Origin: a virus
IMG/VR virus record: IMGVR_UViG_3300022227_000010
Location: 1 to 38,086 of that record
Strand: one strand, 5' to 3'
DNA: 38,086 nucleotides
Shown: positions 1,860 through 13,757 of the stretch, in pieces
How the letters are laid out: every line of letters starts with the position of its first letter
How positions within the stretch are numbered: position 1 is the stretch's first letter
Translations under genes and position numbers: made by a program
Notes under the pieces: generated by a model
Told to the model about the DNA's origin: nothing
The model's database searches: none
What the model saw: only the letters and a program-made list of their open reading frames with translations

Positions 1860-4800
1860 TGTTTATTCCTTTAAGTTGGTTGATTTCAGTTTTTAATTCT
1901 TTTATTGCTTCTATTAGAAGTGGGGTAATCTTGCCATAGTCAATGGTTTTATATCCGTGTCCAATAGGAGCATCTTTGATTAGTTCGGGCAGAACTTCTT
2001 CTATTTCCTGTGCAGATACACCCACTTGCATACGGTCATTTTCAAAACCTAATTCTTTTGCCTTTGCATTTTCGGTGAAGTAATACCCATTGAGTTTCAT
2101 TACTTTGTCTAATGGATTTTCGATGACACCGTGAAAGTCTTTTAATCTGCTATCTGAGTAATATGCAGTTACATCGCCTGTGGTTGTAATTGATTGATTA
2201 AACGCAGTTGAACCATCTGCCTCAATTTGCAATCTCGTAGTACCATTTGTCATTAATCTAACACCAGAACTACCATGTCTATTGGCTAAAGTCAGCCATC
2301 CAGCGTCAGTAACCAATGTTATTCCGCTATTTGAATAAACACCACTCCCGCCTGTACTTGACCTCACGAGAAAATACCCAGCACCAGTATTCCCTTCATT
2401 GTGAAATGCAAATCCAGCATAACCATTTGATGGGGCTTTAAAAGTTAGGGTATAGTTTTCCCTTGCTCCACTACCCACATTTGCCCATGAAGTAGAGTAT
2501 GAGGTATAATTCCCCGCATGGAGAATTTGGTTATTATTCACATGAAGGTTTGCTACCCCTGCCCTTGTGTGTAAATATTGATAGCCTGTACCATTATTGT
2601 AGAGAGCAAGTCCCATCTGTCCCCATGCCGCACCAGCGGATGTAGTTGCATACATATGAAGATTTATCAAATCGGTTTGATAACTTTCCTCATCATGTCT
2701 TGGGTCGCTAAGAATATAGAAAGCACCACTATTCCACCGCCTATATCGAGAACCTATCGTTTGTTCGCTATCAGCATCTGTTGAAAAATGACTTGCTTGG
2801 CTATGTGTATAAGCTGTATTAGCGTTTGCAGAATTACCACCAGACCAATTAATTTGCCCCGCAGTAGTATAAGTACCATCAAATAAGAAATTATGCTTTA
2901 CTACATCATCTTCAGCTATGTATAAACAATGAGTGGATGAATATGATGTGTTCTTTTTGTTTATAAATATACCATATCGGTCTGTATGAAATCCCGCCAT
3001 CCAATGGTCTGAATTATTATGGCTTACTACTAATGAGTGAGCCGCATGATTTGACTGAATCCCAACAAGGTTATTCCATCCTTCGAGTAGAGTACCACCA
3101 CTCATAGCCCCTGTTGTTTTAATAAGAAATCTATCCCCACCAGTATGGGATGAAACAACACCGCCTGTTAATCCACCCGATATTGTAGTAGCCCCCCTAA
3201 GATTTACTGCATTATTCTCTATTCTGATTGTATCAAAATTATCATTTCCTTCATTCCCAGTACACAACCGAATCATCCTTGATGAACCTCTATTGGCTAT
3301 AATCATATGACCAGCTGTGTCAATGTTCCAAGTAAAACCATTTGCAGAATATGATGCAGTTGTTGAACTGAAAGACTGACTTGCACCACCGGGGCCAAAA
3401 TAACAAACATGAGTGCCGTCATTATAAAATCTTATAATACCATAATCGGAATTATTGGTATTATTGAATATAACAGGATTACTATGGTTCATGTTAATCG
3501 TTAATGTATCATCTCCTGTTCCAAGTGTTGTAGAACCTTGTACAGTCAATGCTCCTGTAACAGTCCCACCAATTAATGGGAGATAGGTGCTATGAGTATG
3601 TCCAGTTGCAGAACATCCCGCTTCAGCTAAAGACGAAGGTGTCCACTTTCCTTCATCGTAAACCAATATATCCATGCTTGATTGACCACTCTCTACATCG
3701 GATAGATTTACTCCACCAAAATCGTGGTCGTGGGAACCTATTGCCGTTATATATCCCGCCCCATTGATTAATTGGTTATTGTTGGTTATATAATTTGCGT
3801 TACTTGGAGCATGGGAAGATTGGCTATGTGTATAAGCCGTATTCCAATTAGTGACATCTGACCCTTTGAATGTTGTATAACCATTGGTAGGATGGTGTAA
3901 TGCTATTGAGACATCAGAATATGCGCCGCCACCATCAAAACTATAAAATCTCAACTCATGAGTGCCATCGTCCCAGTACATCCGCAAATATTCATTACTG
4001 CCATCAATGTCCCGAATACCAAATCCACCACTCCAACCTAACGAGTCTGCAGATTGAAACCCTGTCAATGGGAGATAGGTGCTATGGGTATGAGAGTCAT
4101 TAGCTACCGTTACCACACCAGACTTATCCATTGTTGCATCACCAGACATTGATTCTACAACAAACTCACCACCAGAATCCTCATCCCATATAAGAATATT
4201 CCCACTTACTGAGCCTACACTTGCATTGGATAGGCTACCAATACTCTGTCCAGAAATAGAAGTTAAATATCTTCCATCTATATCAACCGTAAAACCCGCA
4301 GAGCCTACTCCCGACCCTGTTATAACGCCTGTGCCAGTATTAAAAGATGCAGATGATATATAGCTTGCAGATGTAGGTGTACCCGCAGTCCATTTCCCAG
4401 ATGCATCATTAAAAATTAAATAATCACCATCGCTTGCTGAGTCTATGTCTGTAGAAACATCATCCATTGCAGAAAAATCTAAATTTGAATGGCTATCTAA
4501 TGTATGAGATGTTGGGGTTCGTGCATTGCTTAATCTGGAATCGTTACCCACACAAACGGTAGATGATGTTGTGCCGTAAGCCAGACCAGCGGTGGCTAAG
4601 TTTATACTTACTGCCCCTGTTTTATCCATTGATACATCACCAGACATAACTATAGGATTATAGCTTGAACCATCTTCATCGTATATGAGAATCTGAGAAC
4701 TTGTAGTACCCGCACCCGTTATATCTGTTAGGGCAGATGAACTGGCGGTAGATGACATATAGGTACTATGTGTATGGTTCCCATATGCAACCGTAGTAGA

Positions 4801-6555: not shown

Positions 6556-7704
6556 TTACGGATTAGTAAATGTTACGATACGATCGTCGAAGACGGTCGT
6601 GCCGCCATATAGCACCGAAGCTACGATCTCTTGTCCGAGGTGGGACAAAGATCTTGCGCTTTCCATGCTTGGCCCGGATTGGCGAGCAAAACTCACCGCT
6701 GACTTATGAAACATATACCCAGCATTCGTGCCATCGGATTCAGACGAAGAAACGGCTGATGAACTATAAACTGGAATTCCATAGATCATCCCATACGATC
6801 CCGTCACACTTGGAGCGTTGCCGCCGCCAAATTTTGAACTATCACTAAAATCGCTTATCGCAAATAGTGATCCATAGACCGTTGGGTTCACAAGTAGGGC
6901 GACATCGCCATCTTCCGGGGAAATATCCAGATTGCGCAATGTTACTATCGCGGATCTTAGATTGGCCGCAGAGATTGTATTGTCAGATGACAAGTCAATG
7001 TCGTTGCCAGATGCTCCACCGTCCAATTTGGCGACGAGGAAATCATCCTGTGCTTTTGCGAGTGCATAACCCATCCCGGAAGCTTCGCGTTCAAACAATC
7101 CGGGGATCGATTGAATTTTAGAAATATCATCCACGATCTTATATACCGCTTTGTGTTGATCAACGGTCAATGTGGACTCAGTATGGGTTGATGCGGCGGC
7201 TGTTAGGGCCGTACCCGCAGTTTTTGTTACCGCTGAATCAACAGCGTATTTGGGTATGTGGAACACATCCCCTTGGGCCTTAACAAGACCGTTTAATGAA
7301 GAGTCAACAAGGTTTTCGACAACCATCTTTCTCTCCATGTAGTTTTTAACTCCCGCTGACCAAATCTCTGGTATATAGACTGCCAACCCTAAGTCTTGAT
7401 ATTGTTAGACTTATGGGTATGTTATAGTAGGTTTTTTATCCTACATCTCCAAATTTCTTTAAAGTATCGGCATATCTTTTCATCTCGAAGAGATGTTGGG
7501 AACTCGTGGAAGGATTATATTCTGTTTTTAGTTTCACCTTCTATGCTCTGCCCCTGTCCCAGTTGTTAAACTGAGCCTTCGGTTCGGGTTGGCTTATCAC
7601 TACCAGAAGTGACTTAGCGTTCCCGCTTAATTTCCCAATTAACATCATATAATCGCTTATATGAGCGCCACAATAATAGCGGTTGTTGGCGTTACATTTG
7701 CCAT
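6556..7704 (-). CDS. Major capsid protein, split by a group I intron
   Basis: Exon 1 (7704-7678) encodes MANVTPTTA and has AGGA 11 bases before its ATG. Exon 2 (7383-6556) continues AVYIPEIWSAGVKNYMERKM and runs 275 residues to SVLYGGTTVFDDRIVTFTNP, giving a 284-residue spliced product. The N-terminal pattern MANVTPTTxAVxIPEIW and the C-terminal VLYGG pattern are those of small HK97/P22-type phage capsid proteins as I remember them. Without splicing, exon 2 could only start at a TTG (7386) with no spaced ribosome-binding site, unlikely for the most abundant virion protein. The gene follows the scaffold gene by 25 bp and is followed by a strong terminator. Confidence 0.88.
7384..7677 (-). ncRNA. 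Group I intron (294 nt, no endonuclease) in capsid gene
   Basis: Numbering the RNA from 7677: P1 pairs exon CGCU (7681-7678) with GGCG (7669-7666), with the required U-G pair at the splice site. P2 is CAUAUAA-GCGA-UUAUAUG (7663-7646). P3 pairs UUGGGAA (7638-7632) with UUCCCAA (7502-7496). P4 is CGGG/CCCG and P5 contains UCACU/AGUGA. P7 pairs GCAUA (7546-7542, in the R-like GCAGAGCAUAG) with UAUGC (7474-7470, in the S-like AAAAGAUAUGCC). An extra GAAGG/CCUUC hairpin between P7 and P3 suggests subgroup IA. P8 is CAUCUC-UUC-GAGAUG (7495-7481); P9 is GUAGG/CCUAC. The intron ends in G (7384), and P10 pairs exon 2 GCAG with UUGU. No open frame for a homing endonuclease is present. Confidence 0.92.
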
Positions 7705-7729
7705 TTGTTAATTTATCCTAACTGGAAGA

Positions 7730-12067: not shown

Positions 12068-12100
12068 GCCATTTTAATAAGATTGACCTTTCGGTCAACC
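12068..12100 (-). other. In-frame 30-nt insert in terL: candidate translational-bypass element
   Basis: On the minus strand terL reads GGG GAA GGT, then TGA (12097-12095), then CCG AAA GGT CAA TCT TAT TAA AAT, then GGC TTA GAT TAC ATG. The hairpin TTGACC-GAAA-GGTCAA (12098-12083) starts in the last base of GGT and buries the TGA in its stem. Deleting the 27 nt between GGT (12100-12098) and GGC (12070-12068) plus one glycine codon restores the TerL consensus GEGLDYMIIDEA. GGT and GGC are read by the same tRNA-Gly(GCC). T4 gene 60 bypass likewise uses matched Gly codons, a stop right after the take-off codon and a tetraloop hairpin. Alternatives are a disabling insertion, a split gene, or an assembly error. 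Confidence 0.7.
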
Positions 12101-12989: not shown

Positions 12990-13757
12990 TTAAATACCAC
13001 AATATCCCTCTTCACACATGAATAATTCTTCTTGATCTTCCTGTAAATAGACAAATTCAATCGGGACTAATGTCCTATGTAAATAAAGTTTATCACCCAA
13101 TCCCCTGTTTGACGAATCACGAATGACACGATCTACTTTTATGACCTTCTCCCACTCGTCTGGATAATCCCGCTTAATTTCTTTCCAATTACTATTATTG
13201 TGGAATGGGCAGAAGGTACATGATGACTTTTTAACATTGTGAAATCCATGTTTTTCAAGAAATCTTACGCCGTGACCCCTCGTAATTCTCTGTTCAATTA
13301 ATGGGTACTTATAATCGATATTGTAAAGTTGTGACTCTTTCATCCGTTGGATCTCATCCAAAGATATCCCAAGCCACATTTCAGTTGGTTTCATCCGTTG
13401 ATATCTCTTTAATCCATGAAGCCTTCTAACTTCTTTTACAACTACATCAATTTTATATTCTTTCGTACATTGTCTCATTACCATCCCTTGAGATTCTGTA
13501 AACGCCGGAATACTCGCCAATCTTTCACCCTTGTTATTAATTATATGATCATATAGTGACTTTCTTTTCTTAATAAGCGGGATCCCATTGTTATTTTCTC
13601 TCCATGTATTGAGAGAATCCCACAGTTCATAGGTGTCTGGTAATTCAGCGCCGGGATCAGCAAATATAGCATAGTCGGCTCGATCTATTTGACCAAGTGA
13701 CGACATGAGATACATCGCAGTTGATTGTATCCCTAATCCGAGTGAAATAATCTTCAT
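12990..13757 (-). CDS. PAPS-reductase / adenine nucleotide alpha-hydrolase-like protein
   Basis: The 255-residue product starts with a modified PP-loop (MKIISLGLGIQSTAMYLMSS), as in ATP-pyrophosphatase enzymes, followed by AIFADPGAELPDTY, a conserved RQCTKEYKI segment, GISLDEIQRMKES, YPLIEQRITR and a cysteine pair in SSCTFCPFHNNSNW. This is a widespread phage family usually named phosphoadenosine phosphosulfate reductase, though assimilatory sulfate reduction is not shown for it. Adenylation of a substrate followed by sulfur or amine transfer, for example to nucleic acid, is the chemistry the fold suggests. It is co-oriented with terminase and follows the helix-turn-helix gene by 9 bp. Confidence 0.85.
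   Translation of the reverse strand: MKIISLGLGIQSTAMYLMSSLGQIDRADYAIFADPGAELPDTYELWDSLNTWRENNNGIPLIKKRKSLYDHIINNKGERLASIPAFTESQGMVMRQCTKEYKIDVVVKEVRRLHGLKRYQRMKPTEMWLGISLDEIQRMKESQLYNIDYKYPLIEQRITRGHGVRFLEKHGFHNVKKSSCTFCPFHNNSNWKEIKRDYPDEWEKVIKVDRVIRDSSNRGLGDKLYLHRTLVPIEFVYLQEDQEELFMCEEGYCGI

Follow-up and report, generated by a model that had tools for sequence, protein, structure and literature searches.

Published examples of group I introns interrupting phage capsid genes already exist. Splicing of the capsid-gene intron of mycobacteriophage LittleE was shown by RT-PCR and N-terminal sequencing, and a capsid-gene intron of the lactococcal phage Tuc2009 is cited in the same article (PMC3706429). 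For the Jug phages, gut phages of 360–402 kb, the accessible part of the report (PMC12363816) describes short group I introns in many essential genes, many of them spliced in metatranscriptomes, and mentions none in capsid genes. The main subtype of viral group I introns is IA2 (PMC11835236). The intron analyzed here belongs to the published capsid-gene type. As judged from the descriptions, it resembles those of LittleE and Tuc2009 in its location in a phage major capsid gene; the LittleE intron has 819 bp with an endonuclease reading frame, whereas the present one has 294 nt and none. In being short and endonuclease-free it resembles the Jug phage introns. The present analysis adds presence and absence at many sites within one capsid gene family, and a case missed by standard thresholds.

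The window, i.e., the whole analyzed stretch of 38,086 nt, comes from a marine phage (IMG/VR record IMGVR_UViG_3300022227_000010). Its major capsid protein (MCP) gene is interrupted between codons 9 and 10 by a 294-nt stretch at 7677–7384, and all relevant capsid and intron features lie on the minus strand:

7716–7719, minus strand: AGGA preceding the capsid start codon ATG as ribosome-binding site; the same TTAGGATAAAT precedes the ATG in the intronless relative L004
7678–7704, minus strand: exon 1, MCP codons 1–9 (MANVTPTTA), an N-terminus identical in intronless relatives
7384–7677, minus strand: predicted group I intron of 294 nt without an endonuclease ORF (RF00028, leave-out model, covariation, empty site)
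7657–7659, minus strand: in-frame UAA, reached if the intron is retained (unspliced translation)
6556–7383, minus strand: exon 2, MCP from AVYIPEIW to the stop codon (phrog_267 major head protein, 8e-34)

Exon 1 contains 27 coding bases (ATG GCA AAT GTA ACG CCA ACA ACC GCT, 7704–7678). The spliced junction would read ACCGCT/GCAGTC (the slash marks the junction), and the spliced MCP would have 284 aa. In intron-retaining RNA, translation would reach the UAA at 7659–7657 after seven codons. The mechanical ORF that matches the PHROG 267 (phrog_267) major head protein at 8e-34 spans 7386–6556 and starts with TTG 7386, which consists of the last three intron bases; the spliced gene starts with ATG 7704. 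The earlier note had expected this outcome, namely that gene callers would overlook the short first exon and report a TTG-started capsid protein. Its intron borders proved to be exact, with a U preceding the 5′ splice site and a G as the final intron base. The junction of MANVTPTTA with AVYIPEIW, which it regarded as the expected capsid N-terminus, agrees with the N-terminus of intronless relatives, and the ATG and AGGA that splicing was said to give the gene are present in the sequence; MCP translation probably begins at ATG 7704. Splicing would predict virion peptides consistent with TPTTAAVYIPEIW, and the spliced MCP should yield peptides covering TPTTAAVYIPEIWSAGVK.

Helices P3, P4, P5, P6, P6a, P7, P7.1, P8, and P9, placed by hand, can all be formed in the window with standard pairs only. 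The elements of the putative intron are as follows, percentages referring to paired cells in an alignment of 30 introns:

7666–7681, minus strand: P1, exon CGCU (7681–7678) with the internal guide GGCG (7669–7666), U.G at the splice site
7670–7674, minus strand: intron side of P10, pairing with exon-2 bases 7383–7379; the third pair, A-U, is G-C in L003
7646–7663, minus strand: P2 hairpin CAUAUAA-GCGA-UUAUAUG (sequence and fold)
7496–7638, minus strand: P3, 7638–7632 with 7502–7496, enclosing P4–P6 and P7.1 (95.2% paired)
7470–7546, minus strand: P7, the guanosine-binding helix, 7546–7542 with 7474–7470, GCAUA/UAUGC (100% paired)
7509–7541, minus strand: P7.1 extension, 7541–7537 with 7513–7509 (100% paired, four of five pairs covary)
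7481–7495, minus strand: P8 hairpin (94.8% paired)
7447–7464, minus strand: P9 hairpin with a GAAA loop (hand pairing and the 30-intron alignment)
7387–7417, minus strand: extra hairpin just 5′ of the 3′ splice site, missing from the L003 intron (sequence comparison)

P1 consists of only 4 bp, one of which is the U.G wobble of the 5′ splice site; a C-C mismatch lies beyond them, and P10 comprises 5 bp (6 bp in L003). Random exon pairs gave P1 and P10 of such quality in 49 of 2,000 trials for the window, 6 of 2,000 for L003, and 0 of 2,000 for L151; therefore, P1 and P10 of the window alone are only modest evidence. A U before the intron and a G at its end were found at all nine junctions examined, and the guanosine-binding G-C pair of P7 was invariant in the 30 introns. 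The additional helix that characterizes subgroup IA, located between P7 and the 3′ P3 strand, is present as P7.1. Thus, every structural element named in the earlier note (P1–P9 and P10, the U-G splice-site pair, the complementary P7, and the terminal G) could be located, and its statement that the intron lacks an endonuclease agrees with the absence of any ORF of at least 80 aa inside it. Its description of the intron as small at 294 nt was not borne out, since eight related introns have only 228–263 nt. The greater length in the window results mainly from the extra hairpin at about 7417–7387, a feature that counts against the group I reading.

The search with the Rfam group I covariance model that the note called for did find a match: RF00028 aligned to 7688–7447 at 32.3 bits (E 1.8e-6) in a short-stretch scan of 551 bases with laxer filters, below the gathering cut-off of 50 bits, which is a convention and not a biological feature. 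The match covered the full-length model, and the P3–P9 core, the P7 G-C pair, the 5′ U.G, and the terminal G are common to both, while P7 is GCAUA/UAUGC in the window and GACUA/UAGUC in the model. Whole-window Rfam scans yielded no group I intron match, nor did an RF00028 search of the viral record itself. Since the score is below the cut-off and whole-window scans are silent, routine annotation would miss the intron. A model built from 27 introns without those of the window and L003, with the consensus structure predicted by RNAalifold, found the window intron at 160.4 bits (E 9e-49). In the 30-intron alignment, 92.6% of cells were paired, compared to 73.1% with shuffled partners and at most 39.2% with slid partners; the slid control is more telling because shuffling ignores relatedness. 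Compensatory changes on both sides were found in 39 of 50 base pairs. These introns were fetched mostly through core motifs, hence the motif is common to them, and the covariation lies mostly outside the core motif used for fetching.

Relatives without the intron provide exact empty sites. Identity between L003 and L005 is 99.8% in the 427 nt upstream and 97.5% in the initial 120 nt of exon 2. At the codon 9/10 site, L003 carries a 263-nt intron and L005 has none, and the joined exons of L003 align with L005 without gaps, which defines the junction exactly. L004 is likewise uninterrupted at this site (MAEITPTTAAVYIPEMW), and MCPs that are more distant also continue across it, e.g., MANVTTTTAANFIPE. 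The spliced window MCP aligns end to end with those of intronless L004, spliced L003, and L005, so that removal of the intron restores an uninterrupted gene. Two contigs belonging to other records, L001 and L002, also have the window intron, which makes an assembly error unlikely. Compared to the window, the intron is 100% and exon 2 is 96.6% identical in L002, and the corresponding values for L003 are 84.8% (aligned bases) and 72.9%. The higher similarity of introns than of exons would be compatible with lateral movement, although it is no proof of it. Presence and absence at one site in the near-identical L003 and L005 is a homing-type pattern; it shows gain or loss of the intron, not the mechanism. 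A Pfam scan of the 30 larger window ORFs gave no HNH, GIY-YIG, or LAGLIDADG match.

With the structure, its covariation, and the exact empty site directly observed, the 294-nt stretch is almost certainly a group I intron without an endonuclease gene, presumably removed by ordinary splicing; its most likely subgroup is IA2, this being the main viral subtype (PMC11835236). Structure and comparison indicate that the intron is probably spliced and that the RNA may catalyze its own removal. The intron in the capsid mRNA would fold into the P1–P9 core, and guanosine bound in P7 would cut after the exon-1 U whose P1 partner is a G. Exon 1, once released, would attack after the terminal intron G, with P10 aligning the exons. 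Codons 9 and 10 would be joined by these two transesterification steps of ordinary group I splicing, and the MCP frame would be restored from ATG 7704.

It is hardly credible that the capsid protein is translated from TTG 7386, with the upstream stretch as an unspliced leader. The ORF from this codon is open, but the TTG is built from the final bases of the intron, and AGGG directly abuts it with no spacing; moreover, intronless relatives start at least nine codons further upstream, and the intron structure shows strong covariation. Some group I introns need the help of proteins, and the short P1 of the window could mean that a phage or host protein is required and the naked RNA is inactive. 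The core helices are all intact and compact, which makes such dependence rather unlikely. The intron could also regulate capsid expression in the manner of a switch, with the yield of spliced mRNA set by translation or by folding. In all three introns at the codon 9/10 site, the reading frame meets a stop no more than seven codons past the 5′ splice site, and without splicing only a short peptide would therefore be made. Yet the close relatives L004 and L005 lack an intron at this site, and the early stop may merely hold ribosomes off the intron core, so a regulatory role appears very unlikely, and splicing as an ordinary group I intron remains the preferred reading.

Introns of the same family occupy several sites in the MCP genes. 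The window's junction, ACCGCT/GCA, is also occupied in L151, by an intron of 228 nt; the MCP of L151 is about 50% identical to that of L004. L005 contains two MCP introns elsewhere, at about codons 50 and 97 (L005 positions 2290–2517 and 2659–2907), and the first of these sites is also filled in L153. Exon 1 at that L005 site was first assigned to end in C, and the border was replaced by GTGTT/C, which yields the same protein and an exon ending in U. Other MCP introns were found at WSDG/V in L014 and near codon 260 in L012, L022, L028, L117, and others; the border in L012 is uncertain, since P1 and P10 come out weak when it is assigned from the protein. L025 has a capsid-type gene by eye, was not matched by the MCP profile, and was not counted. 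Among the best 80 MCP loci fetched by protein similarity, 6 carry an intron of the window's family, a low estimate because similarity ranking favors uninterrupted genes. In a protein search of a phage collection, the sole match (24%) came from Anabaena phage A-4L and was too remote for testing the junction.

At least 119 viral stretches contain the strict core pattern. Aeromonas jumbo phages (AhC3_1, CF8, PS1, and others) and Yersinia phage phiR1-37 have this core as well, at about 71–76% DNA identity over 83–172 nt. Unlike that of the window, these introns adjoin RNA polymerase or gyrase-like genes; no intron annotation was present in the stretches viewed, and a literature search on splicing in phiR1-37 gave nothing useful. 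The same intron family was also observed at a repeated site, TTCGGT/AGATGATAA, in L031, L032, L035, L041, and many similar loci with isolate-type IMG identifiers. In bajarodcaudo virus 1, a rodent-gut phage (L009), an intron core at 1501–1554 is followed after 85 nt by an ORF with the annotation major capsid protein and, further on, by an annotated intron endonuclease.

The second interruption in the window, about 4.4 kb from that of the MCP gene, affects another essential head gene, encoding the large terminase subunit (TerL). It is split by 30 nt at 12097–12068 on the minus strand, between the parts 12481–12098 and 12067–11138. The upstream part ends with LIGEG, the gap reads TGA CCG AAA GGT CAA TCT TAT TAA AAT GGC, and the frame resumes with LDYMIIDEA. 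The gap contains two in-frame stops, begins right after a Gly codon GGU, and ends with Gly GGC, and the final base of the GGU is also the first of a stem, UUGACC-GAAA-GGUCAA, which includes the stop. The identical insert was present in six further contigs, in one of them with altered flanks, and a sequencing error was rejected on account of its recurrence in independent contigs with changed flanks.

Of 78 TerL relatives, 55 have no gap, 21 have one at the same codon, and 2 (L332, L336) have one two codons upstream, i.e., 23 are gapped at or within two codons of the window's place. Where measured, the gaps are 25–44 nt and represent all three length classes modulo 3, with the downstream frame resuming at the same place in each gapped relative. 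The stems differ in sequence, and the pairing is kept: GGTTGACC..GGTCAA, GGCTGACC..GGTCAG, and the unrelated UGAAUGGG..CCCAUUCA. TGA directly follows the Gly codon in 16 of the 17 listed gaps, the exception being L331. This Gly is encoded by GGT or GGC in 17/17 gapped and 25/48 ungapped genes (Fisher p 2e-4, a guide only, since the sequences are related). As landing codon, 12/17 have GGT or GGC and 5/17 have AGC. Strong purifying selection acts on the downstream part (dN/dS 0.04–0.17 in five usable pairs; two comparisons made without realignment, window–L223, with a visible indel, and L327–L337, both gave implausible values and are disregarded), and this holds even for L293 and L294, which have entirely different gaps. 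The downstream frame of L331 and L335 offers no start codon before its codon 171, so separate initiation cannot supply this part in these two.

By its sequence features, the TerL gap resembles a ribosome-bypass element and is a candidate for programmed translational bypass as in T4 gene 60, where ribosomes hop over a coding gap from one Gly codon to another. Removal of the gap at the RNA level is also possible. It appears fairly likely that the two head genes are restored by two routes, the MCP gene by an RNA intron and the TerL gene by a ribosome hop from Gly GGU to GGC over 12097–12068, and that such gaps are recurrent in marine phage terminases. Bypass in a terminase gene, with different features, was proposed earlier for Streptomyces phage Hau3 (review), and no report of this set of terminase gaps was found in a literature search mostly without subscription papers; the TerL gap is the more novel observation compared to the capsid intron.

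A TerL relative (55%) in L338, just upstream of position 3001, has a comparable gap, in which the hairpin is different and rich in C and G and the landing codon is GGC; the contig is assigned to a Candidatus Marinimicrobia genome, which hints only weakly at hosts. Among the other window genes, a phosphoadenosine phosphosulfate reductase-like gene (phrog_424, 4e-35) is located near the terminase gene at 12990–13757 on the minus strand. The ORF 991–1626 on the minus strand matches a virion structural protein (phrog_38766, 2e-16) and has a weak Intein_splicing match below the Pfam cut-off; it possibly carries a self-cleaving domain.

For the phage itself, these results correct the capsid gene model, with the true start most likely at ATG 7704 rather than TTG 7386, and indicate that members of this phage intron family are overlooked by standard Rfam scanning. 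Since several sites are used and close relatives differ in which are filled, the MCP gene is suitable for testing how endonuclease-less introns come and go. If the TerL gap is bypassed by ribosomes, many natural cases would be added to a process whose details come mainly from T4 gene 60.
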